This document shows positions 1,578 through 63,835 of a stretch of 64,000 nt of DNA, one piece after another. Both the position numbers and the translations under genes were made by a program. The DNA comes from Theodoxus fluviatilis (taxonomy: Eukaryota > Mollusca > Gastropoda > Cycloneritida > Neritidae), in assembly GCA_034096865.1 (NCBI GenBank), contig JAWQFJ010002771.1:117001-181000 (forward strand), written 5' to 3'. The notes beneath the pieces were generated by a model. It saw only the letters and a program-made list of their open reading frames with translations, was not told the origin of the DNA and made no database searches. Each line of letters opens with the position of its first letter. The stretch's first letter is position 1.

Positions 1578-2394
1578 ACAAGAAGGGCAAAGCCCATACG
1601 ACTCACATGCTTGACCTTGACCTTTATATGACCTTGACATTCAGGTGACCTTCAAGTTCAAGGTCAAACAACTAAACCTACCAATGACATCATACACAAA
1701 GAAATGCTTTACACATTTTTCCTACCAAAATACATGTGACCTTGACCCAAGGTCAAGGTCATGCAACACAAAGCTGTTAATTCAAGACATAGGAAGCACA
1801 ATGGTGCTTATTGGCACTTTCTACCATGAGATATAGTCACTTTTAGTGGTTCACTACCCCATTTTGGTCACATTTCATAAGGGTCAAAGTGACCTTGACG
1901 ATATGTGACCAAATGTGTCTCATGATGAAAGTATAACAAGTGCCCCACATAATTATTAAGTTTGACACAGTTATCTTCCATAGTTCAGGGTCAAGGTCAC
2001 TTCAAAATATATATACAATCCAACTTTGAAGAGCTCCTGTGACCTTGACCTTGAAGCAAGGTCAACCAAACTGGTATCAAAAGATAGGGCTTGCTTTGAC
2101 CTATATACCACTTGTAGCTAAGGTCGCCATTCTCAATAACGTGGGAGAAAATTGGGAAAATGTGAAAAATGACTGTTTTTGAGACCACATTTATGGCTCC
2201 TGTGACCTTGACCTTGAAGCAAGGTCAAGTCACTATGTATGTTTTTTGAGGCCTTGTCATCATACACCATCATGCCACATTTGGTGTTGATAGACTTAAT
2301 AGTCTCCGAGAAAAATCCAACGTTTAAGTTTTTTACGGACGGACGCCACGGCTCAGTACATAGACTCACTTTTGCTTCGCATGTGAGTCAAAAA
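1578..2394 (+). mobile_element. AGGTCA element, copy 1
   Basis: Starts at ACAAGAAGGGCAAAGCCC and ends at GCATGTGAGTC plus an A run. GACTCACATGC near the left end is the inverted complement of GCATGTGAGTC near the right end. The interior carries many TGACCTTGA/TCAAGGTCA motifs. The 62-90 residue ORFs that recur in each copy run in several frames and look like no known protein, so I treat the element as non-coding and non-autonomous. Confidence 0.85.
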
Positions 2395-4230: not shown

Positions 4231-7200
4231 CTGCAAAAGAAAGGTAAAAATGCTTATTGCCTAGCCAACCCTTTGCTGCATGGTACAGCAATACAGTAAG
4301 AATATACTATTGCACCAGTTGCTAGTTTTATGTCTGCTGAAAAGCCCCTCAATCAAACCCTAAACAACAATCAACCATGATGAATTCCGAGTCAAGCAGA
4401 TGATCCTACTTCACAAATGCCAGTCATGAGGTGCATTGCCTCATGTGAGAAAAGCTAGGATCTTGCAAGACAGGTCAGTGCCAACATTAGACGGCATTTA
4501 CATTCTGTTAACATTATGTTGCCATCAGGCTACTCCTTGCAAGATTCTCACTTACCTAGCATTCTGGCATCACACCCCTGGACCCCCCCCCCGGTTTGGC
4601 TTCGGTTTTGGTACTCAGTGGTGTGGCCACATGTGATTGGTGTGGCTTAGTGGTACAGACGGACCAAGGATCGATACAAGTTGGCGATTTTTATGACGCG
4701 CCCGGCTGGCGCATACACATTGAAAGTAACGTGCCATTCTGATAAAATATGCGCAAATGGCGCGGGCGCGCCAACAATCTGAAGCACTGCAGATTATGTC
4801 AAACACTTTCATAGTTACACACCCTTTGCACTGACCACTCCAAATATACTGGCAAACCTTCAGAGGGGGCAGTCAAACTTATGAAGGATATGTCTAGAAC
4901 ATTTTATTCCCTTATTCAGCACATACTTCTTGTACTTGCTGCTAACAACACCTCATCAACTTTTATCACCATTGACAAGAGGAAAAATCAGCAGTGAGTT
5001 ACAATGCCTCACAAGTGGATTTTTGTTCTCTCAATGCGTATTCATTCATTTCCACAACCATACCTTGGCTTTGGCAGGCCTGCCGCGTCCTTTCTTCCCA
5101 GGCGAGGCCTTGGCATCACCCTGTAGCCACATAAAGCGAACTATTCACTGACATTCAAGACAATCACTAATTGCTTTGTGCATAGTGAACAGTTGGTGAT
5201 CATACAATTGATTGATATGCCCCGAGAAGAATATTTTTCCTCATTTCTGAATGGTGGATTCCTCCCATATGACCTCTATAGGCACATAAGCATGAAAAGG
5301 TTTCAAAATTTAGTCTTAAATGAAGAGAAAGGATCAAGCAAAAACCACAGGTACGAAATGGCCAAAATCAACTGTTAATCTTACTCATTGGGTATCACTT
5401 CTCTAACATGCCAGTGGTCACATCAGAAACAATTACACATTCACTTGATATTTCCACTGTTAGTTAACATGTTAGCATCAGCTGTTTAGATTAGTTGAAT
5501 GACTAGGTCAAATCATTGATACATAAACATGCAAAGCATCCTACTACATAAGTGAAGTTGCCATCATTGCTATCATCATTATTGGTGATCTCCATGTCGA
5601 GGCTTGCCCTCATCTCTCCAAGACTGCCAACATTCCACCTACAGTATTCTTGCACATTTTGAAAAATCCCTTACCTTCCCTTCATCCCCCTTTGTGTCAG
5701 CCTTATCTTCCTCTGCTTTTTTGGGCTGAGAACACAGAGCAAATACAAGCAATAGAATACTCCTAAAAATAAAAACACATAGTAGCAAAACATTTCTGAA
5801 CATAAATACTAGTCCTATTAAGCATCAATTACAGCAGTTTTAACACAAGAAGCAGAGCTGCCAAATGCTACTATTTGGCATAGTTTGCTAAGCTGAAAAG
5901 GTCTCTGCTATGTTGCCATTACATTTCCATTTGCTACACCCGGCTAAAAATGTTCAAGCATTACCCTTTTTTCCTCTCTACATGGAAGCACACAGTTGTT
6001 AAAGATAGATTCATAGGCCTAACAAGCAGTGCACTATACACCATAAAAGAATTGGCCAATCATAAAGCTTCTTTCTAAGGGCTGATGTGTGGTGTCATGT
6101 TCCAATCAACAGGGTTTGTACAGGTTTTTAGATACAAAATTCCATGACTTTTCCATGAGCCTCATTAACATTTTCCATGACTTAGCGTACTGTGATACAT
6201 GACAGTTTTAAAGAGAAAAGTGTATGGCGCACGACCAAACTCACGCACAATACACCCGTTGTAAAAAAGTTCTAATTCTTTTGATTATATTTTAAAGCAG
6301 ATTGATTCAAAAACTGTCACGTATCACAGTACGCTAAGGCTGCCTCTCTCATGTTGGACACATCAAACTCTTTTTCACAAAATTGGCACTGCCATCCCAT
6401 TCAGTTTCACTCGCATGACCAACTCACGGAATTTTCCGTCTCGTGTCCAAGTGTCTTGCAATCGACACTTTCTAGGCATGATGATATTCTCAAAGAAACA
6501 CTGCACCACAAACAAAACAAGCTCTTTTCACTTTCTCCTCGTTTGAACCAACTGACCCTACCGGCGTGGAAATGAAACCAGGTCACCTAGCCAAAGAACC
6601 AATCAGGAAGCAGAAGACAAACAAGCCTTTAAAATTAACCAATGGGATGCAAGGGCACGTTTTCCTGTCGTTCGCAGCGTGTAAAAATAGATTGAGAGTA
6701 TCGCGAGAAGCACAGCCTAGAAAACATTTTTTTCTTTCTTCTTTTAAAAATTTATTAAATTCCATTACTTTCCATGTCATAAATCCATGATTTTCCAGGC
6801 CTGGAAAATGAAAAATAAAATTCCACGACTTTCCAGGTTTTCCATGACCTGTACGAACCCTGAACCAATGTACACTAAATTGTAAAATTTGGCTGGCGGC
6901 CATGTCACAAGTTTTACAGAATGAAACCAAAAAATCAGACTGGAAAAGCTGCTGCTTCTGAATAGAGTCCTTAAAAAAACAAGAGCAGATCAGACTTTTT
7001 AGACAAGACAAAAAAAACACAAAAAAAAACATCCCCCCATAAAACCTGCATTGAAAGTTCCACAGCATACACCAGGCATTTTGTTGCACATACAACCTGC
7101 ACTTACAAGTGAGTCATGGCAGGCTTGCCAACGTAGAACAAGAAGGGCAAAGCCCATACGACTCACATGCTTGACATTGACCTTCACATGACCTTGACCT

Positions 7201-10200
7201 TCAGGTGACCTTCAAGGTCAAGGTCAAACAACTACACCTAGCAATGACATCATACACAAAGAAATGCTTTACACATTTTTCCTACCAAAACACGTGGCCT
7301 TGACCCAAGGTCAAGGTCATCCAAGGTCATGCAACACAAAGCTGTTAATTCAAGACATAGGAAGCACAATGGTGCTTATTGGCACTTTTTACCATGAGAT
7401 ATGGTCACTTTTAGTGGTTCACTACCCCATTTTGGTCACATTTCATAGGGTCAAAGTGACCTTGACCTTGATATGTGACCAAATGAGTCTCATGATGAAA
7501 GTATAACATGTGCCCCACATAATTATTAAGTTTGAAACAGTTATCTTCCATAGTTCAGGGTCAAGGTCACTTCAAAATATGTATACAATCCAACTTTGAA
7601 GAGCTCCTGTGACCTTGACCTTGAAACAAGGTCAACCAAACTGGTATCAAAAGATAGGGCTTAATTTGCCCTATATACCATATATAGGTGAGGTATCCAA
7701 TCTCAAAAACTTCAGAGAAAATTAAGAAAATGTGAAAAATGGCTGTTTTTTAGACAACATTTATGGCCCATGCGACCTTGACCTTGAAGCAAGGTCAAGT
7801 CACTATGTATGTTTTTTGACGACTTGTCATCATACACCATCATGCCACATTGGGTGTTGATAGACTTAATAGTCTCAGAGAAAAATCCAATGTTAAAGTT
7901 TTAAACGAACGCCCGAAACGGGTGAGTACATAGACTCACTTTTGCTTCGCATGTGAGTCGAAAACACTTTGCACCAATTAGGCATGAGGAACAAGCCAAG
8001 GCAGCAACATTATCATTAGCCGCATACTAAAACAAGAAGGGCAAAGCCCACACGACTCACATGCTGAGAGGATGTGAAAAATGGCTGTTTTCTAGACAAC
8101 AATTATGGCCCATGCGACCTTGACCTTGAAGCAAGGTCAAGTCACTATGTATGTTTTTTGACGACTTGTCATCATACACCATCATGCCAAATTGGGTGTT
8201 GATAGACTTAATAGTCTCCGAGAAAAATCCAACATTAAAGTTTTTTTTACGGACGACACAGGTGACCTAGTATGAAAGTATAACATGTGTACTACAATGT
8301 TATGAAGTTTGGAAGAGTTATCTTCCATTGTTCAGGGTCAAGGTCACTTCGAAATATGTATACAATCCAACTTTAAAGAGCTCCTGTGACCTTGAAGCAA
8401 GGTCAAGTCACTATGTATGTTTTTGTATGCCTTGTCATCCTACACCATCATGCGAAATTGGGTGTTGATAGACTTAACAGTCTCCAAGTCTCCAAGAAAA
8501 ATCCAACATTAAAGTTGTTTACAGACGACAGGACGCCCGGACGGACGACACGGGTGACCTAGTATGAAAGTATAACATGTGTACTACAATGTTATGAAGT
8601 TTGGAAGAGTTATCTTCCATAGTTCAGGGTCAAGGTCACTTCAAAATATGTACACAATCCAACTTTAAAGACCTCCTGTGACCTTGACGCAAGGTCAAAC
8701 TGGTATCAAAAGATTGGGATTACTTTGCCCTATATACCATATATAAGGTCAGGTATCCAATCTCAAAAACTTCAGAGCAAATATGGAAAATGTGAAAAAT
8801 GGCTGTTTGTTTAGACATTTGACCTTGAAGCAAGGTCGTCACTATGTATGTTTTTTGACGCCTTGTCATCATACACAATCATGCCAAATTGGGTGTTGAT
8901 AGACTAAGTCTCCGAGAAAAATCCAACGTTTAAGTTTTTTACTGACACCCGGACATAGACTCACTTTTGCTTCGCATGCGAGTCAAAAATGCACCAAGGC
9001 TACTAGTGCTGTTTTTTTAGTCTGATTTTTAGTTAGGTCACACACATTGATTAAATCTGGTTAGCACTATGAATATGTGTTTTTTTTAATCAATGTTTGG
9101 AAATGCTCAGTTGAGGTTTCTGCTAAGCATACACCCCATCAGGGGTTGGCAGCTCTGATAAAGCACTAGCAGAAGCAAAAGAGGTGGGGTAGAGATAGAG
9201 GTGAGACAAAGAGGACAGCCAAAACTTGAAGAATGCACAAGAGAGAGAAGATATCAGGTGTCAGGCAATGAAGGTTTCTAGACTTTGAAAGCCACCACCA
9301 AAAAAGCCTTGGAGAGCACTAGAGGCCACCAAAAGTAAGGTGAATAGAAACCCCCCTCCCCTTCTTCCAATTTTGAATGTTGTGCTCAATATTGAGTGTT
9401 ACATCCCTGTATTATGTACACACCACACACAGTTCTCCCTTGTCATTTCTAAACTATTCAATCCACTCAGAAAGAGATGCATGCACATCCTCACTTGAGC
9501 CAGACCAGGGTAATTACATCATCTAAGGCCAACCAAAAAAAGTTGAGATTAATAATATAGTTTATTCATACGCACATGTCCCTTGACAGGCAAGTTCATG
9601 GCGTTTACAATCCAAAGAATCAACACTCATACAACCGCTTAACTCCACATTCCTACAAAAACTCACACACTACACACATAAACAAAAACAAAAACTAAGA
9701 TCCAATAGAACAAACTATACAATATACACAGCACTTGCAGGCAAGGTCAAGTAAGGCGAAGCAGCTCAGCGGGAAAGGCGGATCGGAAGAGGTGGGTCTT
9801 TAGAGCACTTTTGAACTGGGGCAGTGTCAGAATGACGGACTGAGAGAGGGATACTATTCCAGGTTACAGGTCCAATATAGAAGGCATGCTGTCCTCGAGT
9901 TTTCTTGTTACGGCGGGGGACCTTAAGCATTCTAGAGTCAGCAGCTGAGCGTAGAGATCTGGAGGACGTGTAGACTAAGAATTTCTGTAAGAGCGTGTGG
10001 TGCGGTGTTGTCGATGGCCTCGAAGCACAAAGTAGCAAGTTTATAATCTATTCTCTGAGAGATGAGTGAAGTGTATGTAGGNNNATGCACTGTACTGAAA
10101 ACAGAGCTGCCAACCCACCATCATGCCAAAGAGTAGCATCCAGAGCTTTTTGGAGTAGCATTTAAGAAATAGGCGTAGCACACACGCAAAAGAAGGAAAA

Positions 10201-12543
10201 TGGCGATGTTAGAGCAGGCGCGAAGCGCTGAACAGACAGCGTGAAGCGGGGGTGGGGGAGGGGGGGTGTTGACTGTGAAGGTGGTGAGCGCTGAACCGAC
10301 GGCGTGAAGGGGGGGGGGGGGGGGGCGGGATGGGAGGGGGGTTCTACGTGACAGTCAAAAGTTCAGTTCGAGGCTTTGAAAAATCGTAGTTTTTCCCGGA
10401 CGATGGTAGCAAGCATGTCGAAATCGTAGCATGCTACGCCTAAATCGTAGCACTTGGCAGCTATGTGAAAATCATAGGCTTGATCACTTCAAGTTCCTGG
10501 AGGATATATGGTAAGCAAATTTTTTTGGAAGAGGTTCCATAGCCGTGTCACGCTTGTAACTTATAATCTTTGGTGTGGTCAAGGGGGAAGTAACTCTTCA
10601 CTTGCATTGCCACTTCACAATTTTTTTATTATTTTTTTTGTCTCCCTGACTGACTGTGGAGTATCATGTGTGCAAACCAAAAGCTGCATTTTTAAAATTG
10701 TCGGTCCGCGCAAAAAATACGCACAGTTTAAAAAAAATACGCATATCTGAACCAGTGAGTACGCTGAGGCAAAATTTGGGGTACCCAGGTCTGGATTTGG
10801 ACTGTGGAGGGGAATTGTTGTGTGATTTGGACTGTGGAGGGCAAGTGTTTTGTGATTTTGCCTGTGGAGAGAAGGGTTGGTGGTTTGTGCTGTAAGCTGA
10901 AGGGTGGTGAGTTGAGATACGGATGTGAAGGTTTTGTGACTTGGACTGTGGCGGGGGAAAGTGGTTGGGGTTTGGACTGTGGCGGTGAAGTATTTGGTGT
11001 TTGGACTGTGGCGGTGAAGTATTTGGGATTTGGACTGTGGAGGTGAAGTGGTTGGGGCTTGGACTGTGGCGGTGAAGTATTTGGGTGTTTGGACTGTGGA
11101 GGGGAAGGGTTTTGTGATTTGGACTGTGGAGGGGAAGTGTTGTGTGATTTAGACTGTGGAGGGGAAGGGTTGTGTGATTTGGACTGTGGAGGGGAAGGGT
11201 TTTGTGATTTGGACTGTGGAGGGGAAGGGTTGTGTGACTTGGACTGTGGAGGGGAAGTGTTGTGTGATTTGGACTGTGGCGGTGAAGTATTTGGTGTTTG
11301 GACTGTGGTGGTGAAGTGTTGTGTGATTTGGACTGTGGAGGGGAAGTGTTGTGTGATTTGGACTGTGGAGGGGAAGTGTTTTGTGATTTGGACTGTGGAG
11401 GGGAAGTGTTTTGTGATTTGTGCAGTGGAGGTGAAGGGTTTTGTGATTTATGTAGTGGAGGTGTAGGGTTTGCAATTTGTATTGTGGATGGGAAGTCGGT
11501 GTGTGGAATTGTTTCTTGTGTCCCTATGTGCATTAAATCCTTGGTTATTCATTTATCCTTGCTTGCGTGGTCTGTGTCGTGTTTGTCTCACCCCAAGTAG
11601 CCCAGGGGTAGGAAGTGCTTTCCCTTATAGCGTCAAGGGTTTGTGTGTACTACCCACCACCAAAAAGCAGCTCTTGACATAAGGGAATATCCGTTGTCTG
11701 TTCACACACTTATTTCCAAGTCGAGTATTTTTTATTTGGTTTCCACGAGAGAAAAAAAAGTTATAAAAAAAAAAAGTTATTGCCTACCTACCTACCCTAT
11801 TTTTTTTGGCTATGTTACCTTAACCACACCAATATTTTTTTTTGGCCTTATATACGTATATCCCCTGCATGTTGCATGAACCCAATGGCTCATGAGAGCA
11901 CATGTGCACCCATGTGCATGTTCCCTGCAGATATGTGCCTGCACATGCATATTATATTCATACATTTTTGGGGGGTTGTTGCATGTGGGTGGGATTTTGC
12001 TAGGTCAAATATGTTCTGGGGATGTCAGGCTGCGGATTGAATGGTATGAATTGGTAAGGAACAGCAGATGACAAAAAGTGCCATCCTACCTCCCCAGCCT
12101 TCTTCCCACTGTTAACTGCTGGTTCTACCGGAGCATCACCAGCCTGTGGGGACAGAAAGCAAATGACCACAGTGATCAGTTTTACTACTTTTCCAAGTAA
12201 TCCAACCCCAACCAACCCATTTACTGAACCTTTGAATTCAAATCCCACTTCATTTTTTATACAAGACAAAATTCTGATTAAAAAATAATAATAATAATAA
12301 ACATTCAAACTCACACAACTGTAATTTATAAGTTTTCATTTTTCATCACCTCCATTAGCCCCCTATACTTCTGCTTTCAATGCATTCTAACAAATCATAA
12401 GTAGTAATGGGGGCACAGCAATTGGGACTCACAGCATCAATTGCGGCATCATCAGCAGTAGCGTTGTCTACTTTCTTGTTCTCAGCTGACGCAGCTGCAG
12501 CCCCACCAGCAGAACGTTTAGTTCCCTTCTTTGGTCCCATCTT
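3050..12543 (-). CDS. Small nuclear protein with C-terminal AT-hook-like motif (5 exons, 90 residues)
   Basis: Coding exons on the minus strand are 12433-12540, 12090-12143, 5675-5725 and 5065-5121; the stop codon is 4228-4230. Each is bounded by AG/GT and every junction is phase 0, giving 36+18+17+19 = 90 residues. The product begins MGPKKGTKRS, is rich in Ala, Lys, Asp and Glu, and ends GKKGRGRPAKAK. RGRP is the minor-groove-binding core of AT-hooks (HMGA family), and the Lys/Ala/acidic composition also recalls HMGN proteins. A chromatin-associated nuclear role is inferred. The ATG sits 3 nt inside an exon with an acceptor at 12544, so a 5'UTR exon must lie further upstream. The second intron is 6.4 kb and full of transposons. 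HMGN-like versus HMGA-like identity is not settled. Confidence 0.75.
3065..3070 (-). terminator. Polyadenylation signal AATAAA of the AT-hook gene
   Basis: AATAAA on the minus strand in the expected place at the end of the last exon. No competing signal is closer to the stop codon in the stretch I read. Confidence 0.55.
5065..5121 (-). CDS. AT-hook gene, fourth coding exon with RGRP core
   Basis: 19 codons (GDAKASPGKKGRGRPAKAK). Acceptor GGCTACAG, donor GTATGG. It contains the AT-hook-like RGRP core flanked by basic residues. A consensus AT-hook has PRGRP; here the first proline is replaced by Gly. Confidence 0.75.
5675..5725 (-). CDS. AT-hook gene, third coding exon
   Basis: 17 codons (PKKAEEDKADTKGDEGK), strongly charged. 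Acceptor TTCTCAG, donor GTAAGG. Its Lys/Glu/Asp pattern resembles the nucleosome-binding and acidic parts of HMGN proteins, by inspection only. Confidence 0.75.
6110..6862. mobile_element. hAT-like non-autonomous element
   Basis: The left end CAGGGTTTGTACAGG and right end CCTGTACGAACCCTG are inverted complements with one mismatch. Inside both ends are short repeated phrases such as TTCCATGACTTTTCCATGA. CAGGGTT-type termini are known from hAT MITEs. I could not find a perfect 8-bp target duplication. Confidence 0.6.
6180..6340. repeat. Hairpin nested in the hAT-like element
   Basis: CTTAGCGTACTGTGATAC at about 6181 and its inverted complement ending GTACGCTAAG near 6340 form arms of about 29 bp with one mismatch. 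The whole is about 160 bp, typical of a foldback MITE nested in the larger element. Confidence 0.65.
7138..7964 (+). mobile_element. AGGTCA element, copy 2
   Basis: Full-length with both ends. The right end reads GTGAGTCG instead of GTGAGTCA. The interior diverges from the 1578, 13916 and 17728 copies and carries a TATATACCATATATAGG variant, suggesting at least two subfamilies. Confidence 0.85.
8032..8989 (+). mobile_element. AGGTCA element, copy 3 (rearranged)
   Basis: The left end is followed almost at once by sequence normally found near the right end (deletion). The segment 'GGTGACCTAGTATGAAAGTATAAC ... TCCAACATTAAAG' then occurs repeatedly in tandem. The right end has GCATGCGAGTC. It looks like internal unequal exchange. 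Confidence 0.75.
8990..9530. other. Intronic stretch, nothing recognised
   Basis: Within the large intron of the AT-hook gene. I see no repeat end, RNA gene or protein-like frame. Confidence 0.4.
9540..10081 (-). pseudogene. 3' fragment of an L2/CR1-like LINE
   Basis: Minus-strand frames carry the usual C-terminal signature of L2/CR1-type reverse-transcriptase ORFs: SRSLRSAADSRMLKVPR, then a P-x-x-WNSIPLSVR block, and after a frameshift KSALKTHLFRSAF ending in a stop at 9748-9750. It is 5'-truncated close to the NNN gap, so its true left limit is unknown. Confidence 0.65.
10102..10465 (+). mobile_element. G-tract MITE (CAGAGCTGCCAA ends), copy 1
   Basis: Begins CAGAGCTGCCAA and ends TTGGCAGCTATG, near-complementary ends. 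It is flanked by TGAAAA on both sides (10096-10101 and 10466-10471). It holds long G runs (about 10240-10340) and a terminal phrase ATCGTAGCATGCTACGCC. Confidence 0.65.
10798..11475. repeat. 30-bp minisatellite, over 20 units
   Basis: The unit TTTGGACTGTGGAGGGGAAG plus about 10 bp (GTGTTGTGTGA-type) repeats with variants. Because 30 is a multiple of 3, several frames on both strands stay open. The minus frame reads as a decapeptide of the type SPNHKTLPLH and the plus frame LDCGGEVLCD. I see no start, splice context or homology suggesting translation. Confidence 0.8.
11682..11850. repeat. GGTGTGGTTAAGGTAAC-type MITE end, copy 1
   Basis: From 'GGGAATATCCGTTGTCTGTTC' to 'CTTAACCACACCAATA' plus a T run and GGCCTTA. 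Nearly the same 165 bases recur at 20204-20371, and the terminal part recurs inverted at 19417 and again near 55010. Confidence 0.65.
12090..12143 (-). CDS. AT-hook gene, second coding exon
   Basis: 18 codons (AGDAPVEPAVNSGKKAGE). The acceptor follows a pyrimidine-rich TTTCTGTCCCCACAG and the donor is GTAGGA. Phase 0 on both sides. Confidence 0.72.
12433..12540 (-). CDS. AT-hook gene, first coding exon
   Basis: 36 codons starting ATG GGA CCA AAG AAG. The donor is GTGAGT at 12427-12432. An acceptor CAG at 12544-12546, three bases before the ATG, shows this is not the first exon of the transcript. The Ala-rich stretch GGAAAASAENKK is typical of low-complexity nuclear proteins. Confidence 0.75.
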
Positions 12544-13242: not shown

Positions 13243-13890
13243 ATGGATGCCGACAGCGAAAGTGACTCCGATTCTGATGATTTATTGTCCAGAAATGTGC
13301 CCGATTCGAGTGATTCTGAAGAAGATTATGCAAGGCCAAGCATGTCGACTTCGAGTTTGGGAAGCAAGCGCCGTTCAACTCGATTTTCGCGTGCAAGAAG
13401 ACGGAGTTCGAGTCAAAGTGGGCGTGGCGGTCGAGCGTGACAGACTCCACAAGACGAAGATGAGGGGTGGGTCGAAGTGGAATACCGTGAAATGACAGAC
13501 GTTCCAGCATTCACTTGTGTACCTGGTTTGAAGGTGAATCTCAGTGAGGAGAAATCTCCGAAAACTTTCTTTGAACTTTTCATCGGTGCAACAGTGATTG
13601 AACTTTTTGTGACAGAGACTAATCGCTATACACATCAGGTGGCACAAGTGCATCCCAATTACTATTACCTGAGGGGATGGAGAAGTACCACTGCTGCTGA
13701 AATGAAGCGATTCATTGGCCTCCTCCTGACCATGGGAATTATCTCGAAGCCAGAGATTCGTCACTTCTGGACAAAAAAAACCGTTATTGAGAGCTATACT
13801 GTTCTTTGGCAAGGTAATTATGCAGCTGTTTTTGTTTACTCTCTCTCTCTCTCCTCTATTCCCACCCCCTCACTTTCTTATTTGTGATAT
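13243..13890 (+). pseudogene. piggyBac transposase, N-terminal fragment
   Basis: ATG at 13243 opens an acidic Ser/Asp-rich N-terminus (DADSESDSDSDD), then a basic Arg/Ser stretch. A frameshift near 13438 leads into a frame with the start of the DDE_Tnp_1_7 fold: PKTFFELFIGATVIELFV, then TTAAEMKRFIGLLLTMGI and a PEIRHFW block. The match stops near 13815, and the catalytic Asp residues normally found further on are missing. The frame ends at an ordinary stop before the inserted AGGTCA element. Confidence 0.85.
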
Positions 13891-13915: not shown

Positions 13916-14776
13916 ACAAGAAGGGCAAAGCCCATACGACTCACATGCTTGACCTTGACCTTTATATGACCTTGACCTTCAGGTGACCTTCAAGGTCAAG
14001 GTCAAACAACTAAACCTACCAATGACATCATACACTAAGAAATGCTTTACACATTTTTCCTACCAAAATACATGTGACCTTGACCCAAGGTCAAGGTCAT
14101 CCAAGGTCATGCAACACAAAGCTGTTAATTCAAGACATAGGAAGCACAATGGTGCTTATTGGCACTTTCTACCATGAGATATGGTCACTTTTAGTGGTTC
14201 ACTACCCCATTTTGGTCACATTTCATAAGGGTCAAAGTGACCTTGACCTTGATGATATGTGACCAAATGTGTCTCATGATGAAAGTATAACATGTGCCCC
14301 ACATAATTATTAAGTTTGAAACAGTTAGCTGCCATAGTTCAGGGTCAAGGTCACTTCAAAATATGTATACGATCCAACTTTGAAGAGCTCCTGTGACCTT
14401 GACCTTGAAGCAAGGTCAACCAAACTGGTATCAATAGATAGGGCTTGCTTTGACCTATATATCACTTGTAGCTGAGGTCGCCATTCTCAATAACGTGGGA
14501 GAAAATTGGGAAAATGTGAAAAATGACTGTTTTTGAGACCACATTTATGGCTCCTGTGACCTTGACCTTGAAGCAAGGTCAAGTCACTATGTATGTTTTT
14601 TGAGGCCTTGTCATCATACACCATCATGCCACATTTGGTGTTGATAGACTTAATAGTCTCCGAGAAAAATCCAACGTTTAAGTTTTTTACGGACGGACGG
14701 ACGGACGCCCGCCCGGACGGACGGACGACACGGCTCAGTACATAGACTCACTTTTGCTTCGCATGTGAGTCAAAAA
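13916..14776 (+). mobile_element. AGGTCA element, copy 4 (inside piggyBac)
   Basis: Complete ends, inserted in the interior of the piggyBac element, so it is younger than that insertion. Near its right end is a (GGAC)/(GCCC) array, a variable part of the family. Confidence 0.85.
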
Positions 14777-17727: not shown

Positions 17728-18584
17728 ACAAGAAGGGCAAAGCCCATACGACTCACATGCTTGACCTTGACCTTTATATGACCTTGACCTTCAGGTGACC
17801 TTCAAGGTCAAGGTCAAACAACTAAACCTACCAATGACATCATACACTAAGAAATGCTTTACACATTTTTCCTACCAAAATACATGTGACCTTGACCCAA
17901 GGTCAAGGTCATCCAAGGTCATGCAACACAAAGCTGTTAATTCAAGACATAGGAAGCACAATGGTGCTTATTGGCACTTTCTACCATGAGATATAGTCAC
18001 TTTTAGTGGTTCACTACCCCATTTTGGTCACATTTCATAAGGGTCAAAGTGACCTTGACCTTGATGATATGTGAACAAATGTGTCTCATGATGAAAGTAT
18101 AACATGTGCCCCACATAATTATTAAGTTTGAAACAGTTATCTTCCATAGTTCAGGGTCAAGGTCACTTCAAAATATGTATACAATCCAACTTTGAAGAGC
18201 TCCTGTGACCTTGACCTTGAAGCAAGGTCAACCAAACTGGTATCAAAAGATAGGGCTTGCTTAGACCTATATACCACTTGTAGCTAAGGTCGCCATTCTC
18301 AATAACGTGGGAGAAAATTGGGAAAATGTGAAAAATGACTGTTTTTGAGACCACATTTATGGCTCCTGTGACCTTGACCTTGAAGCAAGGTCAAGTCACT
18401 ATGTATGTTTTTTGAGGCCTTGTCATCATACACCATCATGCCACATTTGGTGTTGATAGACTTAATAGTCTCCGAGAAAAATCCAACGTTTAAGTTTTTT
18501 ACGGACGGACGGACGCCCGCCCGCCCGGACGTACGACACGGCTCAGTACATAGACTCACTTTTGCTTCGCATGTGAGTCAAAAA
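17728..18584 (+). mobile_element. AGGTCA element, copy 5 (best reference copy)
   Basis: Hairpin GGGCAAAGCCC at 17735-17745, then GACTCACATGC at 17750-17760; at the right, GACTCAC (18553-18559) pairs with GTGAGTC (18573-18579), and GCATGTGAGTC (18569-18579) is the inverted complement of the left GACTCACATGC. By eye I count 14 TGACCTTGA/TCAAGGTCA/CCAAGGTCA sites. At 17887-17911 there is a perfect everted pair, TGACCTTGACC and GGTCAAGGTCA, separated by 3 nt. Confidence 0.88.
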
Positions 18585-19165
18585 GTCACTTTCTTTTAAA
18601 ACCTCGATTCTGAAAATTTGATAATATTGAATCGGACCTAACTTCCAGTCAGTGTGCAAAATCTCAAGGAAATCCGTCCAGTAGTTTTTGAGATATAAGC
18701 CGTGGAGACGGGACAGACAGACACACACACACACACAGACAGATAAAGTCTGTAGGACCTCCAGTAAACCTGGAGGGATAAAAACAAGTAACCCCATGAA
18801 GATCTGAAATTATTTCCAGAATCAAGAAATAAGCATTTCTTCCAACTTAGATTCTGAAGAGTATTTTTAACTATTAGCTAAAACATTTTATTCATTCAAG
18901 GAAGATGGGGGTGGGGTGGGGGTGTGGGGTTTAAAATTCTAATCTTTTCAAAGTTAAATTAGACATCAAGAAAAACAAGGGGGTGGGGTCTTAAGTTTAC
19001 AAACCTACCTTGGATGCATTCATGCACATTAATGATTTGCCCAGTATTTTTCTGCATTAACATTTCCACTTAAAGTCATTAATGCATCAACACATAAGTT
19101 TTGCTAGTTGAGTTGTTCTCCTGAGTGACTGGATGGGGTGCTCTATTAAAGTTTCTTATAACCAG
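18585..19165. other. Unassigned stretch with LINE-tail-like phrase
   Basis: 18640-18740 contains 'TCCGTCCAGTAGTTTTTGAG' and 'GACAGACAGACACAC', a phrase often seen near repeat 3' ends. The rest is not recognised. Confidence 0.3.
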
Positions 19166-27005: not shown

Positions 27006-28832
27006 TCAGTCTCTTAACCCTGAGATGAGTTGTTGAGGCACCACTGATGACTTTCGGACAATCTTCCTCCATCGATCTCTATCCTCTGTGGCTCGCTGTG
27101 AGTCAGCAAAGGTCAAGCCTGTCCATCTTTGATGTTGTCTTCTCACCTCTTTCTCTGCCTGCCTCTCCTTCTCCCACCTGGTACGGTACCTTGCAGGATG
27201 GTCTTGACCAGCCCACTGCCTCTTGACACGTGACCGTACCACTTCAGCTTTCTGCTTTTCACAATTGACAGCAGGTCTTCGTACTGTCCAATTGCTCTCC
27301 TGATCCTGTTGCTGACTTCCTCATTCGTGACATGGTCTTTATAGGAGATGTTCAGAATCTTGCTGTAGCATCTCATTTCCAGGGCTTGTATCCGTCTCTG
27401 TAGTTCAGATGTGAGTGTCCAGGACTCGCATGCATACAAGAATACGGAGATGGCCAGCGTGCGCATGAGCCTGATCTTCGACGCGAGAGTGATATTTCTG
27501 TCAAGCCATATGGCTTTAACTTTACCGATGCTGCTGTTGTTTGTGCTATCCTGGACAGTATCTCTGGTTTGGACCCTTCATCAGTCATGATAGATACCAG
27601 GTATTTGAAGTTGTTCACAGCTTCCAGTTTTTGGCCTTTCACTTTGATTTCCATTTTGAAGCCCCGAGGATTGTTCGTCATCACCTTGGTCTTCTCGGCG
27701 CTGATCTCCATGCCATATGCCTGTGAGGTCTTGTCCAGGTGCTCGACAAGACTAGTCAGCTCCTCTTCACTTCCTGCTAATCCATCAAAGTCATCAGCAA
27801 AACGTAAGTTGGTGATCTTTCTGCCACAGATGCTGATCGATCCTTCGTGTTCTGCTAGGGCATCAGTCATTATCCTTTCGAGGAAGAGGTTGAAGAGTGT
27901 GGGGGAGAGTAGACAGCCCTGTCTGACTCCGACCGTTGTCCTGAACCATTCGCCTGTGGTACCATTCAACAGGATTGCGCTGGTCGCTCTGTTATAGAGA
28001 TGTTCGACGACTTTGATAATCTTGGAGCTGATGTTGTAGCTTCTCATGTGGCCCACAGCGCAGCATGCCAGACTCTGTCAAATGCTTTCTTAAAGTCTAT
28101 AAAGACATGGTACAGATCTTGTTGGTGTTGTAGATGTTTCTCACACAGGACTTTCAGATTGAAGATCTGATCGGTGGTGTTCCTACCTGGTCTGAAACCT
28201 GCCTGCTCTTCAGCAATGATTTTCTCTGCCTGAGGTTTTAATCTGTTCAACAGTACTTTCAGCATGACCTTGCTGGGATGGCTGATGAGGCTGATTGTGC
28301 GGTAGTTCTGGCACATTTGCAGGTTTCCTTTCTTGGGCAATGTAATCACTAGGGACTGTGTCCACAGGGTTAGCCAACCTCCCGTCTGCCAGATCTTATT
28401 GCAGATCTTTGTGAGTGCATCGATCATTGCGTCGGCTCCTGCCTGGATGATTTCCCTGGAATGTTGTTGTTGTTGTTGCGTACCTGAGCTAAACACTCCC
28501 AGGATCACCCAAGTGGGTGAGATGATTGCGTGTGTGACTGTTTTTGAACACCCCGCCATATAGGCAGCCACGTACACTCCGTCTTCAGGGGATTTGATCT
28601 CTGTCTCCAGAGAATGCCTGTTGTTATGTTAGGAGCTTACCGCGGCTGAAGATAATCCCCACATAACAGTACAACATAACAACATTTTGCTGTAGCCTTA
28701 ATTGGTTTTTGGCTGGAGTCAACAAATAGCAGCCTTTGCCCAAGGCAAGTGGAATGTTGTCAACCCTAGCTGACTTCCCTTTCTTGAGGGACTTAACCGC
28801 TGTCTCCACCTCCACGCGGTTAAGGAGTATAA
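27006..28832 (-). pseudogene. RTE-like non-LTR retrotransposon, broken reverse transcriptase
   Basis: Minus strand. From 28815 downward: EVETAVKSLKKGKSARVDNI; after insertions, EIIQAGADAMIDAL; YRTISLISHPSKVMLKVLLN; EEQAGFRPGRNTTDQIF; the palm block DFKKAFDRVWH; VRQGCLLSP; the catalytic FADDF (around 27785-27805); AEKTKVM; and a C-terminal region with WYGHVSR, RRRGRQRKR and WTGL. Frameshifts near 28050, 27420-27460 and 27160-27240 break it. A SINE-like insertion (28459-28617) and another unassigned insertion split the 5' part. The RTE-like label rests on remembered motif style. Confidence 0.8.
28459..28617 (-). mobile_element. SINE-like insertion in the RTE LINE
   Basis: Minus strand: a phrase GGAGTGTACGTGGCTGCC, then ATGGCGGGGTGTTCAAAAAC, ending in a (CAA)n tail. 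This body plus trinucleotide tail is reminiscent of an abundant gastropod SINE (from memory). GAATG occurs at both borders as a possible short target duplication. Confidence 0.5.
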
Positions 28833-34659: not shown

Positions 34660-35225
34660 TTTTTGACTCACATGCGAAGCAAAAGTGAGTCTATGTACTC
34701 ACCCGTTTCGTCCGTCCGGGCGTCCGGGCGTCCGTACAAACTTTAACATTGGATTTTTCTCGGACACTATTAAGTCTATCAACACCCAATTTGGTATGAT
34801 GGTGTATGATGACAAGGCGTACAAAAACATACATAGTGACTTGACCTTGCTTCAAGGTCAAGGTCGCAGGGGCTGTCTAAAAAAACAGCCATTTTCCAAA
34901 TTTTCCCAATTTTTGACTGAAGTTTTTGAGATTGGATGCCTGACCTATATATGGTTTATAGGGCAAAGTAATTCCTATCTTTTGATACCACTTTGATTGA
35001 CCTTGCTTCAAGGTCAAGGTCACAGGAGCTCTTTAAAGTTGGATTGTATACATACTTTTTGAAGTGACCTTGACCCTGAACTATGTAAGATTAATCTTCC
35101 CAACTTCATAACATTGTAGTACACATGTTATACTTTCATACTAGGTCACCCGTGTCGTCCGTCTAGGCGTCCGGGCGTCCGTCTGGGTGTCCGGGCGTCC
35201 GGGCGTCTGGGCGTCCTGTAATCCT
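34660..35225 (-). mobile_element. AGGTCA element, copy 6 (truncated)
   Basis: Inverted orientation. The hairpin end is at 34665-34692; the other end is replaced by a (GTCCGGGC)-type array and then unrelated sequence at about 35226. Confidence 0.8.
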
Positions 35226-37022: not shown

Positions 37023-37640
37023 TCACCCATCGATCTCGAAGTAGCGGATGTAATAGTCCACTGTTATCAGGAAGGATCTGTCTTGCCAATTGAAGATATC
37101 GGTGCCAAGCTTCTGCCACGGTCGAGTTGGGACTTCGTGGGATAGGAGTGGTTCCTTTGGGTTTGCTGGGCTCATACTGGCACAGATGGTACAGGCTGCG
37201 ATGGTGTTGTGGATCTGTTTTTTCATCCCTGGCCAGAACATGATTTCTCCTGCTCGTTGCTTTATTTTCTCAATTCCAAAGTGGCTGGAGTGAATCTTCG
37301 TTATTATTTCTGGACGCATGGCAAGTGGTAAAGTATCTTCTCTCCTTTGAAGATGATTCCATCGGTAAAGTATCTTCTCTCCTTTGAAGATGTTTCCATC
37401 GATGGAGGAAAGTTCATCTCTGAAGTTCCAGAACTCACTGATGGTTGATTTGCAGTCTGTACGAAGTTCAGGCCATCCATTCTGTATGGTTGACTTCAAA
37501 TCTTGCAGTTGAGGGTCTTCTGCAGTGGCTTTCTGAATTTGCTTCATTTTCACATCGGTGACGGGCTGATTCTCGACGACAGTGTGGACGTATGCGTCGA
37601 TGTCTTCAGCAATTTTCACTGTCTTCTGGTTCTGTTGCAG
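37023..37640 (-). pseudogene. Ty3/gypsy pol fragment: RNase H-integrase junction
   Basis: Minus strand. After the tandem repeats the frame reads TVKIAEDIDAYVHTVVENQP, then KATAEDPQLQDLK and NGWPE (the linker typical after gypsy RNase H). Next comes the integrase zinc-binding domain (HSSHFGIEKI, WPGMKKQIHNTIAACTICAS; an HHCC pattern) and the start of the integrase core with the first catalytic Asp in KLGTDIF. It stops after YFEIDG at 37023, so the remaining catalytic residues are absent. A 37-bp tandem duplication (37327 and 37364) repeats the ILYRW / EDTLP segment. Confidence 0.85.
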
Positions 37641-38700
37641 GTATGGGCGCAAGCCCCGGTGGTGGACTTCTTCGTGAACTCCAATGCTTGGGCGTAATGC
37701 CTTGGGGGAACCCTGTGGGATCCCAGTGGGCCCAGAGCCCTGGTTCTGTTGCAGGTTTGGGCGCAAGCCCTGGTGGTGGATTTCCTCGTGAAATCCAATG
37801 CTTGGGCGTAATGCCTTGGGGGAACCCTGTGGGATCCCAGTGGGCCCAGAGCCCTGGTTCTGTTGCAGGTTTGGGCGCAAGCCCTGGTGGTGGATTTCCT
37901 CGTGAAATCCAATGCTTGGGCGTAATGCCTTGGGGGAACCCTGTGGGATCCCAGTGGGCCCAGAGCCCTGGTTCTGTTGCAGGTTTGGGCGCAAGCCCTG
38001 GTGGTGGATTTCCTCGTGAAATCCAATGCTTGGGCGTAATGCCTTGGGGGAACCCTGTGGGATCCCAGTGGGCCCAGAGCCCTGGTTCTGTTGCAGGTTT
38101 GGGCGCAAGCCCTGGTGGTGGATTTCCTCGTGAAATCCAATGCTTGGGCGTAATGCCTTGGGGGAACCCTGTGGGATCCCAGTGGGCCCAGAGCCCTGGT
38201 TCTGTTGCAGGTTTGGGCGCAAGCCCTGGTGGTGGATTTCCTCGTGAAATCCAATGCTTGGGCGTAATGCCTTGGGGGAACCCTGTGGGATCCCAGTGGG
38301 CCCAGAGCCCTGGTTCTGTTGCAGGTATGGGCGCAAGCCCTGGTGGTGGACTCCCTCGTGAACTCCAATGCTTGGGCGTAATGCCTTGGGGGAACCCTGC
38401 GGGATCCCAGTGGGCCCAGAGCCCTGGTTCTGTTGCAGGTTTGGGCGCAAGCCCTGGTGATGGACTCCCTCGTGAAATTCCCATGCTTGGGCGTAATGCC
38501 TTGGGGGGAATCCTGTGGGATCCCAGTGGGCCCAGAGCCCTGGTTTTGTTGCAGGTCCTGTGGGATCCCAGTGGGCCCAGAGCCCTGGTTTTGTTGCAGG
38601 TATGGGCGCAAGCCCGGGTGGTGGACTTCCTCATGAACTCCAACGGATGGGCGTCATGCCTGGTGGAATTCCTGCAGGATCACAGTGGGCCCATGCCTTG
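37641..38700. repeat. 114-bp tandem repeat, about 7-9 units, in frame with gypsy fragment
   Basis: The unit contains CTGGTTCTGTTGCAGGT, GGGCGCAAGCCCTGGTGGTG and GTGGGATCCCAGTGGGCCC. Central units are almost identical. Because 114 = 3 x 38, at least four frames stay open for over 300 codons on both strands. The minus frame joined to the gypsy fragment reads 38-residue repeats such as QNQGSGPTGIPQGSPKALRP. Right-end units are shortened. Confidence 0.9.
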
Positions 38701-38820
38701 TTGGAATCCTTCGGGACCCCATCGGGCGGAGCCCTGTGATGATATTCTTGTGAACTCCAATTGTTAGGAATAGTGGCGAGTTTCATGTTGGTGGCACAAG
38801 ATTTTGTTGCATTTTGCAGA

Positions 38821-39385: not shown

Positions 39386-39832
39386 TTTGACTTACAAAAG
39401 CGAGTCTGTGTGTCCGTTAAAAAGGTCAGAATTTTAAATGTTGTCTAAAAACAGGAATTTTTCACAATTTCCTAATTTCGCTAAGGTTTTGGAGATTGGA
39501 TACCTGACCCATGTATGGTGTATAGAGCAAAGTCATCCCAATCTCTTTATACCAGTTTAACTCTTCCAAACTCATAACATTGTAGTACACATGCTATATT
39601 TTCATATTAGGTCACCCGTGTCGGGTGTCATCCGTTTAAAACCCTAACGTTGGAATTTTTTCTCCCAGACTATTAAGTCTATCAACACCCAATTCGGCTT
39701 GATGGTGTATGATGACAAAGCGACTTGACCCCGCTTCAAGGTCAAGGTCGCAGTTGCCTTAAATGTTGTCTAAACAACAGCCATTTTCTCACATTCGCTC
39801 AGCATGTGAGTCGTGTGGGCTTGCCCTTCTTT
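39386..39832 (-). mobile_element. AGGTCA element, copy 7 (degenerate)
   Basis: Inverted; decayed hairpin end near 39387 (GACTTACAAAAGCGAGTC) and left end GCATGTGAGTCGTGTGGGC ... GCCCTTCTT at 39802-39832, with large internal deletions. Confidence 0.7.
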
Positions 39833-40355: not shown

Positions 40356-41695
40356 GGCGGTCAGCCCTCACACAAAACAGGGGTCAAGAAGATTAGTTAC
40401 ATGTTATGATGTGATTGTAAATAATTTTGTACATGGGTGAGAGGTAAAACTACTAGAACAAATAACACTGAGATCAGAACAAGGGACATAACCAGGGTCA
40501 TGGTTTTGATTAATTGTATGAATGTAGAATTCTGTTTCTGAAGAGGAAAATTTGCAATGTGAGTGATGTGTACATTTGTTTGCACAACCTCAGCCGTGTT
40601 ATATAAGCAATAATATCTTTGAGGTTCTGAGGCATGCTGCTATGATTATTATACTGTCGTATGTATAATATATGGTGTCACTGGCTCTTTATTAAGAAAG
40701 AATACTGGATGTTGTGTTAATCGTTGGTTATTATGCTTTCTTAATAAAGATGCCCATTTTCTCTCTCGAATCAAGTGTGCTGTGGTCTTGTGCAAAAAAG
40801 GATTTGTGTGAAAGAATGCAACACAAACACAATTTTTTGCACGGGGCCACAGATCACGGTTGTTGGATGCCATTAGCAGATGGTTTCTCATGTTGTCTGC
40901 TCCTAACTTCCGGTCAGTGCGCTGACCGCGCTCAGCTTCTGGAGGGGGGTCTGGCAATTGCCAGCCCCAGTGCGTGAACGCACGCGCAGGAATCAGGTCA
41001 TTCCTGAATTGTCCCAGGGAGAACTGGCATCAACTCAAAATTTTTCCCCACCCTCCACCCCTAGCTGCCACCAACCTTGTTGTTTTACTAAACAGTCACA
41101 TATATTGCTTTCCATGTACTGACTGGTTACTCAATTGATCGCGTCCCTAGTGACTCTGGAAGGGTAGGAGCCATGCTTTTTCCCATGGGGTTTTTTACCG
41201 CAGGTCCTTCCTTCATATTATTTAGGCGGTCAGCCCTCACACAAAACAGGGGTCAAGAAGATTAGTTACATGTTATGATGTGATTGTAAATAATTTTGTA
41301 CATGGGTGAGAGGTAAAACTACTAGAACAAATAACACTGAGATCAGAACAAGGGACATAACCAGGGTCATGGTTTTGATTAATTGTATGAATGTAGAATT
41401 CTGTTTCTGAAGAGGAAAATTTGCAATGTGAGTGATGTGTACATTTGTTTGCACAACCTCAGCCGTGTTATATAAGCAATAATATCTTTGAGGTTCTGAG
41501 GCATGCTGCTATGATTATTATACTGTCGTATGTATAATATATGGTGTCACTGGCTCTTTATTAAGAAAGAATACTGGATGTTGTGTTAATCGTTGGTTAT
41601 TATGCTTTCTTAATAAAGATGCCCATTTTCTCTCTCGAATCAAGTGTGCTGTGGTCTTGTGCAAAAAAGGATTTGTGTGAAAGAATGCAACACAA
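40356..41695 (+). mobile_element. Candidate TRIM-type LTR element
   Basis: Direct repeats 40356-40826 and 41225-41695 (471 bp, no difference seen by eye) flank about 400 bp of interior. Each repeat contains a TATA-like GTTATATAAGC and, about 140 bp later, a polyadenylation signal AATAAAG, as LTRs do. The interior has no pol or gag. Doubts: the repeats begin GGCGGTC rather than TG, and I could not find a primer-binding site, polypurine tract or target duplication. A plain segmental duplication is the alternative. Confidence 0.5.
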
Positions 41696-41696
41696 A

Positions 41697-42324
41697 AAAC
41701 TTTAACGTTGGATTTTTCTCGGAGACTTTTAAGTCTATCAACACCCACTTTGGCATGATGGTGTAGAATGACAAGGCCTCACAAAACATACACAGTGACT
41801 TGACCTTGCTTCAAGGTCAAGGTCACAGGAGCTCTTTAAAGTTGGATTGTATACATATTTTGAAGTGACCTTGACCCTGAACTATGGAAGATAACTCTTC
41901 CAAACTTCATAACATTGTAGTACACATGTTATACTTTTATCATGAGACACATTTGGTCACATATCATCAAGGTCAAGGTCACTTTGACCCTTATGAAATG
42001 TGACCAAAATGGGGTAGTGAACCACTAAAAGTGACCATATCTCATGGTAGAAAGTGCCAATAAGCACCATTGTGCTTTCTATGTCTTGAATTAACAGCTT
42101 TGTGTTTCATGACCTTGGATGACCTTGACCATGGGTCAAGGTCACATGTATTTTGGTAGGAAAAATGTGTGAAGCAGTTCTTAATGTATGATGTTATTGC
42201 TAGGTTTAGTTGTTTGACCTTGACCCTGAAGGTCATCTGAAGGTCAAGGTCATGTAAAGGTGAAGGTCATGTAAAGGTCAAGCAAGGTCAAGCATGTGAG
42301 TTGAATGGGCTTTGCCCTTCTTGT
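41697..42324 (-). mobile_element. AGGTCA element, copy 8 (right end missing)
   Basis: Inverted. The GGGCTTTGCCCTTCTTGT end is at 42308-42324; the hairpin end is cut at the TRIM-like repeat, suggesting one inserted into or recombined with the other. Confidence 0.8.
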
Positions 42325-42445: not shown

Positions 42446-42740
42446 GCACAATGAAGTATAATTGTTGCTGTTGTATTCAAAGTCCTTATCATGAGTAGAG
42501 TTCACAATATTACACTCTTGTGGTTCAAATTTTTCCGCTTTAATACAAGTTTTACATTTTTGGGAAATCGATGTTTAGAAAATGAATTGATGAAAAGATG
42601 GCTGCCAATATCCGAGTGTATCACAACAAGTGGAGGAATACACTCAACGATGGGATACTTTGTGGTATGCATGGTATGGAAGATTTAAAGCAATCACGTG
42701 ACCAACCTGTTGCTGAGACTATATTCACTAGTCTCAGCAG
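42446..42740 (+). repeat. Host repeat, uninterrupted copy (empty site)
   Basis: From 'CACAATGAAGTATAATTG' to a terminal hairpin GCTGAGACTA ... TAGTCTCAGC (10-bp arms). A second copy at 60853-62638 is split by two insertions, so this copy shows the pre-insertion order. Confidence 0.8.
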
Positions 42741-43713: not shown

Positions 43714-44598
43714 ACAAGAAGGGCAAAGCCCATACGACTCACATGCTTGACCTTGACCTTTATATGACCTTGACCTTCAGGTGACCTTCAAGGTCAAGGT
43801 CAAACAACTAAACCTACCAATGACATCATACACAAAGAAATGCTTTACACATTTTTCCTACCAAAATACATGTGACCTTGACCCAAGGTCAAGGTCATCC
43901 AAGGTCATGCAACACAAAGCTGTTAATTCAAGACATAGGAAGCACAATGGTGCTTATTGGCACTTTCTACCATGAGATATAGTCACTTTTAGTGGTTCAC
44001 TACCCCATTTTGGTCACATTTCATAAGGGTCAAAGTGACCTTGACCTTGATGATATGTGAACAAATGTGTCTCATGATGAAAGTATAACATGTGCCCCAC
44101 ATAATTATTAAGTTTGAAACAGTTATCTTCCATAGTTCAGGGTCAAGGTCACTTCAAAATAGGTATACAATCCAACTTTGAAGAGCTCCTGTGACCTTGA
44201 CCTTGAAGCAAGGTCAACCAAACTGGTATCAAAAGATAGGGCTTGCTTTGACCTATATACCACTTGTAGCTAAGGTCGCCATTCTCAATAACGTGGGAGA
44301 AAATTGGGAAAATGTGAAAAATGACTGTTTTTGAGACCACATTTATGGCTCCTGTGACCTTGACCTTGAAGCAAGGTCAAGTCACTATGTATGTTTTTTG
44401 AGGCCTTGTTATCATACACCATCATGCCACATTTGGTGTTGATAGACTTAATAGTCTCCGAGAAAAATCCAACGTTTAAGTTTTTTACGGACGGACGGAC
44501 GGACGGACGCCCGTACGCCCGGACGGACGGACGCCCGGACGGACGGACGACACGGCTCAGTACATAGACTCACTTTTGCTTCGCATGTGAGTCAAAAA
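43714..44598 (+). mobile_element. AGGTCA element, copy 9
   Basis: Full-length, very close to copy 5. It has an expanded (GGAC)n / GCCC array before the right end (about 44488-44550). Confidence 0.88.

Positions 44599-51204: not shown

Positions 51205-63835
<12,631 letters not shown>

Follow-up and report, generated by a model that had tools for sequence, protein, structure and literature searches.

Why does one repeat family of Theodoxus fluviatilis hold so many copies of what looks like a hormone-receptor site, and what is this site for? The motif in question, TCAAGGTCA, is the extended half-site for ERR and NR5A monomers, and a preliminary description of the window (the whole 64,000-nt stretch analysed here) had proposed that a transposon family could spread receptor sites across the genome, or alternatively that the element itself might make use of the motif.

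Abundance and structure of the motif-bearing family

The reference copy contains 15 matches to YCAAGGTCA/TGACCTTGR (13 TCAAGGTCA and 2 CCAAGGTCA), close to the 14 or so announced by the preliminary description, and the everted pair that it placed at 17887-17911 is present. The motifs are grouped in six clusters, occur in both orientations and include seven instances of the tandem form AGGTCAAGGTCA (DR0). By eye, the surroundings of these clusters differ, with the exception of two clusters sharing a 33-bp block that occurs as a repeat within the element, and AAGGTCAAGGTCA is itself a hexamer repeat of two units. In the window as a whole, 122 YCAAGGTCA were counted as compared with 1.84 on average, and never more than 5, in 100 dinucleotide shuffles; 121 of them reside in copies of the family, the sole outsider being located at 21404. 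Across the searched genome (965 Mb, 19,668 contigs), TCAAGGTCA occurs 223,452 times against 6,862 for a reversed-pattern control, and the 29-bp terminus of the element has 17,799 copies (up to three mismatches) against 0 for its own control. Furthermore, 15 arbitrary 10-kb stretches (contig starts, with contig numbers arbitrarily chosen, L014-L028) hold 69 exact 9-mers, 65 of which fall within matches to the family, while the surroundings of the other four appear unrelated by eye. The family thus carries most copies of this response element, and the proposal of a motif-spreading transposon family is borne out in the arbitrary stretches as well as in the window. The number of copies in the window, previously put at 11 at least, is 10 or 11, as two pieces are perhaps one element (Table 1).

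Table 1. Positions in the window of the reference copy, its parts and the other copies of the family
Feature	Position	Strand	Remarks
Reference HINE copy	17728..18584	-	857 bp; HINE convention, minus strand: TTTTTGACTCACATGCG ... GGGCTTTGCCCTTCTTGT
Terminal palindrome GGGCAAAGCCC	17735..17745	-	7 bp from ACAAG end
Subterminal inverted repeat, copy one	17750..17760	-	plus strand GACTCACATGC
Motif cluster closest to ACAAG end	17762..17816		4 exact 9-mers, both orientations
Motif cluster including everted pair	17887..17921		pair flagged by the preliminary description
Motif pair, DR0	18050..18064		AGGTCAAGGTCA on minus strand
Single motif	18157..18165	+	
30-bp block TTTGAAGAGCTCCTGTGACCTTGACCTTGA	18191..18220		presumed deletion junction; once in HINE
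Motif pair, right end	18369..18383		within second copy of 33-bp block
GGAC/GCCC (GTCC-type) microsatellite	18502..18532		length varies among copies; borders approximate
Short internal repeat GACTCAC	18553..18559		complementary to adjoining subterminal repeat
Subterminal inverted repeat, copy two	18569..18579	-	plus strand GCATGTGAGTC; then AAAAA terminus 18580-18584
HINE copy	1578..2394	-	
HINE copy, older subfamily	7138..7964	-	
Short-terminus-type HINE	8032..8989	-	three internal repeat units (by eye)
HINE copy	13916..14776	-	
TTTTT-end part of old HINE	34660..35183	+	
Palindrome-end part of old short-type HINE	39435..39831	+	about 74-76% identity to reference in two longer matches
Truncated HINE copy	41694..42324	+	
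HINE copy	43714..44598	-	
HINE copy, extra central repeat units	56267..57882	-	adjoins reverse-transcriptase frame 57878-58360
HINE copy	61608..62463	-	paralogous empty sites L014:6765-6955 and window 42509-42657

The pieces at 34660-35183 and 39435-39831 may derive from a single old element that was interrupted when 4.2 kb inserted into it, because they correspond to opposite ends in the same orientation. The reference insertion recurs with near-matching flanks at G000:C8266:124660-125690 (L029), i.e., at a duplicated or allelic locus.

The ends of the element are fixed across copies and read, on the plus strand of the reference, ACAAGAAGGGCAAAGCCC-ATAC-GACTCACATGC ... GCATGTGAGTC-AAAAA. On the opposite strand, this corresponds to the order TTTTT, 11-bp subterminal repeat, short complementary repeat, GTCC-type microsatellite, body, second subterminal repeat, palindrome GGGCTTTGCCC and CTTGT. 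Among 34 full copies, which include one duplicated locus and 20 copies chosen by similarity to the reference, each of the exact 11-bp subterminal inverted repeats GACTCACATGC and GCATGTGAGTC is found in 32, as are the exact palindrome GGGCTTTGCCC at 7 bp from the end and a host T following the CTTGT end. Insertion in a T-run, with no target duplication, is seen for two copies with paralogous empty sites: the copy at 61608-62463, with empty counterparts in L014 and in the window at 42509-42657, and the copy at L010:4410, with an empty counterpart in the flank of L036. In addition to the GTCC-type microsatellite, extra central repeat units are present in the copies at 8032-8989 and 56267-57882. 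All sequence features of HINEs and Helentrons that were looked for were found, including a candidate autonomous partner with the same ends at one locus. Judging from these sequence features, it is near certain that the element is a HINE, i.e., a very abundant, non-coding and non-autonomous Helentron of the rolling-circle type, and this identity is common to the explanation that we prefer and to all its rivals. Two copies (L040 and L047) are joined head to tail to a further copy, an arrangement that would point to rolling-circle transposition only indirectly.

The element is new and is clearly identified as belonging to a kind already known. Cg_HINE of the Pacific oyster, as described in PMC7492417, likewise possesses subterminal inverted repeats of 11-12 bp, a complementary repeat close to them, a GTCC/GTCY-type microsatellite, a terminal palindrome, embedded tandem units and dispersed insertion. 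This likeness is one of described parts; AGGTCA is absent from the main text of PMC7492417, whereas the Theodoxus ends carry AAGGTCA arrays. The Helentrons, HINEs and DINE-1 elements described in PMC4067079 are also similar in having a T-rich target, no target site change and a variable number of terminal T. As for the motif, literature matches to TGACCTTGACCTT, to TCAAGGTCA together with transposable elements and to AAGGTCAAGGTCA included, by title, no motif-carrying transposon. An oyster paper (PMC10743806) considered as a precedent for the motif was set aside, the sequence being a PCR primer in the part of the text where it occurs; motif matches in viral contigs were taken as chance and left out of the analysis. 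No Rfam family matched the window at gathering scores.

A 5'-truncated copy, L218 (G000:C7:231800-232836), lacks its first 22 bases and is flanked on both sides by the 10-base word TAGGGATAGG, in contrast to the duplication-free insertions elsewhere. Much of what surrounds the family in the window consists of other transposons, with reverse-transcriptase, Tc5/CENP-B-type and PF13843 (DDE_Tnp_1_7) frames at 27373-28577, 57878-58360, 60226-60693 and 13477-13887. Tandem repeats with open reading frames occupy 10664-11533 and 37023-38767, with units of about 30 bp and 114 bp, and one frame of the latter repeat includes an integrase zinc-binding domain (PF17921) as well. A dispersed repeat with a CTGTAGGACCTCCAGTAAACC unit at 18590-18790 directly adjoins the reference HINE and is also found in L017, L023 and L028; it forms short 35-bp arrays in places, and a 22-mer taken from it has 6,753 exact matches genome-wide. 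A palindromic repeat with ATTTTCCAGGCCTGGAAA is common to window positions 6790-6810, L009:4218 and L011:9153.

A candidate parent and the probable origin of the motifs

A search of the genome with the Helitron_like_N profile (PF14214) returned 18 places. For three of these Rep loci, the sequence at the predicted ends was read. HINE ends were found at one of the three, on contig C10001, where a candidate autonomous Helentron of about 9.3 kb is located. Its Rep match (108.8 bits) belongs by coordinates to the same frame as C2H2 zinc fingers situated at the frame start (PF00096, 5.4e-6), and this minus-strand frame runs over 2268 codons without stops, extending from about 194.9 to 188.1 kb. A GDGNCFFRC stretch near the frame start is OTU-like, a label that is our own, the Pfam otubain match being weak (0.082), and an endonuclease-like stretch follows the frame in a different reading frame (PF14529, 1.6e-6). 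Upstream of the coding frame lie HINE positions 1-493 at 94.5% identity, starting TTATTAA / ACAAGAAGGGC, and this left end precedes the frame start MSSKCATCEKVF by about 1.1 kb. Downstream of the endonuclease-like stretch, 394 bp correspond to HINE positions 464-857 at 92.6% identity and end with GAGTCAAAAA. The palindrome-bearing end is thus upstream of the coding frame, unlike in the majority of the elements described in PMC4067079, where one Drosophila ananassae Helentron has the same arrangement.

The two end pieces overlap by 30 bp in HINE coordinates, and this 30-bp sequence, which includes a motif pair, stands as a direct repeat at both inner borders of the C10001 Helentron. A search for this junction and the bases beside it (at most 8 substitutions in 52 bases) found it once in each of 69 full HINEs out of 71, missing L072 and L078. 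Because the HINE matches both ends of the C10001 element, with the junction repeat at both inner borders, it would most simply be a Helentron minus its coding part, lost between the 30-bp direct repeats. This is in line with PMC4067079, where HINEs are described as having arisen by deletion from Helentrons that encode Rep and endonuclease, and the candidate parent makes the origin of the HINE concrete, as a deletion between motif-containing direct repeats.

At the two other Rep loci, no HINE ends were present in 601 bp of C306, nor in 1,471 bp of C605, where the only match is an inverted HINE fragment. The latter (G000:C605:111180-112650; L222, L223) covers positions 84-749 at 88% identity and lies upstream of a Helentron coding frame. 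A Rep fragment at C1499:40937-41461 has a terminus of the short-type family 104 bp upstream, in coding sense.

The left end of the C10001 element holds 13 motif cores (AAGGTCA/TGACCTT) and its right end 6, 19 in total, as compared with 16 and 6 in the matching parts of the reference, 22 in total, and 0 were found in the 2,470 internal bp read, about 6 kb including the helicase part lying outside this reading. Since the cores fill both ends and are absent from the internal sequence read, the motif is a feature of Helentron ends. The ends of a rolling-circle transposon thus explain an approximately 30-fold excess of hormone-receptor-like sites in this genome, and motif-enrichment analyses in such genomes would be misled unless the family is masked.

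Rep proteins of rolling-circle replicons bind short repeats. By analogy, the motifs would be cis repeats of the Helentron ends that act as iteron-like contact sites, either for the element's own protein, with its frame of C2H2 zinc fingers and Rep, or for a host factor aiding replication; the N-terminal zinc fingers would be the obvious candidate reader. HINEs would carry the motifs because they consist of ends and would inherit them as such from the parent, and any seeding of receptor sites would be a by-product. We consider it probable that the HINE derives from a C10001-type Helentron, with end-borne motifs that decay neutrally and an iteron-like role in cis. The most likely role of the motif, if it has any, would lie in cis for the element, and the alternative raised earlier, a use of the motif by the element, agrees with the presence of motifs in both ends of the candidate Helentron. 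The full motif array seems not to be strictly required, because there are short-type elements that lack the left motif array: the short-type terminus, which is related to the 29-bp terminus, occurs 771 times genome-wide, and the three short-type copies read contain 10, 1 and 0 motif cores versus 20 in the reference.

A rather unlikely, if by no means negligible, alternative is that the motif has no function, the ends of a founder Helentron having carried by chance an AAGGTC hexamer repeat, which duplication and slippage then spread within these ends, the copies being passengers. The 33-bp block duplicated inside the element and the two-unit hexamer repeat AAGGTCAAGGTCA agree with such an origin, and repeat arrays are common in HINEs according to PMC7492417. 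The related proposal that internal tandem duplication explains the motif is right only in part: it covers the repeated 33-bp block, but the six clusters have surroundings that, by eye, differ except in the two with this block. The distribution of the motifs over six clusters in both orientations, and their presence in either end of the C10001 candidate, with 19 cores against 22, also speak against the absence of function.

The clusters could also act through folding, inverted AAGGTCA/TGACCTT pairs shaping the single-stranded transposition intermediate into hairpins. The strand indeed folds far better than 20 shuffles (-154.2 kcal/mol, z -10.2), and scrambled motif blocks lower the stability by an average of about 35 kcal/mol, with 0 of 60 scrambled sequences as stable. 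However, such folding is expected of any set of inverted repeats, and when the 13 motif blocks were randomly re-oriented, 24 of 60 sequences were at least as stable; the order of orientations is therefore not arranged for folding, and we regard a hairpin function as highly improbable.

Decay of the motifs after insertion and possible receptor binding

The decay test comprised 67 full-length copies, 34 of which were fetched by terminus alone, and left out CpG columns, microsatellite columns and the last 30 columns; copies that are not full length were left out of the alignments. L029, the same insertion as the reference, was left out of the decay tests, the relatedness test and the tree count, and L217, a duplicate, was left out of the relatedness test and the tree count and kept in the junction count. 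Private substitutions in the 133 motif-core columns number 45 versus 45.1 expected after standardisation by base (ratio 1.00, bootstrap 0.73-1.32), and versus 54.8 when matched by trinucleotide, a comparison of counts alone. On the tree, terminal branches carry 59 changes in motifs versus 75.3 expected (p 0.13). After insertion, the motifs thus seem to decay about neutrally, like ordinary DNA, so that retention of the sites by the host is not clearly indicated. Preservation of sites after insertion, as would be expected of response elements in use, was not found in the private substitutions, the other counts being lower, and not significantly so where tested.

Variants shared between copies were counted as well. 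In motifs, 8 were found versus 17.3 expected (ratio 0.46, shift p 0.029), a deficit that becomes 0.56 (p 0.065) without columns 222-332, a replaced segment at which old and young subfamilies differ wholesale. It amounts to 5 versus 13.6 expected in the 9-mer columns (p 0.008), 3 versus 11.5 in young copies alone (p 0.005) and 8 versus 14.3 in old copies alone (p 0.086), and gives p 0.059 with the terminus-fetched copies. Internal branches of the tree carry 7 changes in motifs versus 14.5 expected (p 0.096), and the differences between the reference and the C10001 ends fall in 2 of 139 columns of motifs and 26 of 696 columns elsewhere (Fisher p 0.21). Conservation of the motif in the source lineage, i.e., the one that transposes, is therefore weak, dependent on the cut and at most suggestive. 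These data cut both ways for an absence of function: the near-neutral private decay and the non-significant retention in the source lineage, on the tree and against the candidate parent, agree with it, whereas shared motif variants at about half of expectation or less do not.

The same results bear on the possibility that an ERR/NR5A/NR6A-type site is in use, either through co-option by the host or through exploitation by the element of a germline receptor, for instance of the GCNF type acting on the seven DR0, for opening or replication in germ cells. The extended half-site is matched exactly, the reference carries seven AGGTCAAGGTCA DR0 sites, and a review (PMC10909835) links the DR0 of AGGTCA to binding of NR6A1/GCNF; were a receptor involved, NR6A/GCNF on these DR0 would, from the sequence, be a candidate on a par with ERR or NR5A. 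Alu repeats provide a tested precedent for the spread of receptor sites by a transposon (PMC1785376). There, as here, one transposon family holds most copies of a response element, with 108,582 DR2 of which 90% are in Alu, and that case illustrates that such a spread can be functional. Unlike the Theodoxus sites, which are known from sequence and decay nearly neutrally, several Alu elements display occupancy by ChIP (PMC1785376). Some of the private and terminal change counts in Theodoxus also fall under expectation, at non-significant levels. However, private substitutions are neutral when standardised by base, and the location of the motif in the transposon's own ends is a simpler reason for its presence, which makes receptor use improbable in our opinion. 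A receptor network is not supported, and a function of the sites as receptor sites in the host finds no support in motif columns that mutate about neutrally after insertion.

Strand agreement of neighbouring insertions

The most surprising result, found unplanned, is that insertions on the same contig tend to lie on the same strand over tens of kilobases. The sample consisted of the first 100 exact termini listed, on 21 contigs with numbers C1-C39. Among these matches listed, 69 of 79 pairs of neighbours on one contig agree in strand, a figure above the highest value of 62 found in 10,000 strand permutations, and of the 14 contigs with at least three copies, 9 have all of them on a single strand, as compared with 1.3 expected and a maximum of 7 over 20,000 simulations, C7 having all of its 18 copies on one strand. 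All-pairs agreement at 20-100 kb is 187 of 209 among the matches listed, these pairs not being independent. A control repeat was analysed with tandem neighbours in one array collapsed; it is small, and part of its listings comprised only contigs with at least two matches more than 1 kb apart. Among the matches listed, neighbours more than 1 kb apart agree in 67 of 77 HINE pairs versus 14 of 23 control pairs (Fisher p 0.012), and those more than 5 kb apart in 43 of 52 versus 4 of 9 (Fisher p 0.024). Beyond 20 kb, the agreement of HINE neighbours alone is not significant (13 of 18, p 0.10), nor is its difference from the 3 of 7 of the control (p 0.20). The short-type terminus has too few neighbour pairs to add to these figures.

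Local hopping was rejected as the main cause of this agreement, neighbours being no closer relatives than other copies. Indeed, the nearest relative is on the same contig for 1.0 of 45 copies versus 1.95 expected, and the mean distance is 0.0287 within contigs (68 pairs) and 0.0276 between contigs (2,347 pairs). Segmental duplication explains a single pair on C7 (L057/L217, with identical flanks) in a flank comparison that covered 11 of the 18 C7 copies. The other flanks compared, short and mostly under 200 bp, are unrelated, save those of L035/L076, a pair on different contigs. On C7, the positions G000:C7:210417/223702 and 213431/226717 show an equal offset of about 13,285 bp, attributable to tandem segmental duplication or an assembly artefact.

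The strand agreement suggests strand-directed insertion or retention. Any of three causes would yield it: insertion directed by replication forks, the direction in which a region is transcribed, or selection within genes against one of the two orientations. The T-over-A skew of the flanks relative to HINE orientation gives no clear direction, being positive in 7 of 11 stretches. We tentatively put forward, as a quite possible explanation that falls short of being the probable one, that Helentron insertion in this animal is strand-directed over tens to hundreds of kb, most simply with the single-stranded intermediate entering the lagging-strand template of a moving replication fork or the exposed strand of transcribed DNA, with AAGGTCA arrays as docking sites. 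If true, the orientations of thousands of HINEs would constitute a germ-line map of fork or transcription direction. Long-range strand agreement would furthermore make the choice of target strand by Helentrons testable from sequence alone.

A parallel is offered by the IS200/IS605 family, which as described in PMC5371812 also transposes in single-stranded form and has copies whose orientation follows the large-scale direction of the chromosome. That family is bacterial with a reported link to replication, unlike the eukaryotic Theodoxus family, which is compared with it on strand agreement alone. By title or start of abstract, none of the matches listed, including PMC5371812 and PMC5876387, ties a Helitron orientation bias to replication. 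In the window itself, the HINE copies form strand runs: minus from 1.6 to 18 kb, plus from 34 to 42 kb and minus from 43 to 62 kb.
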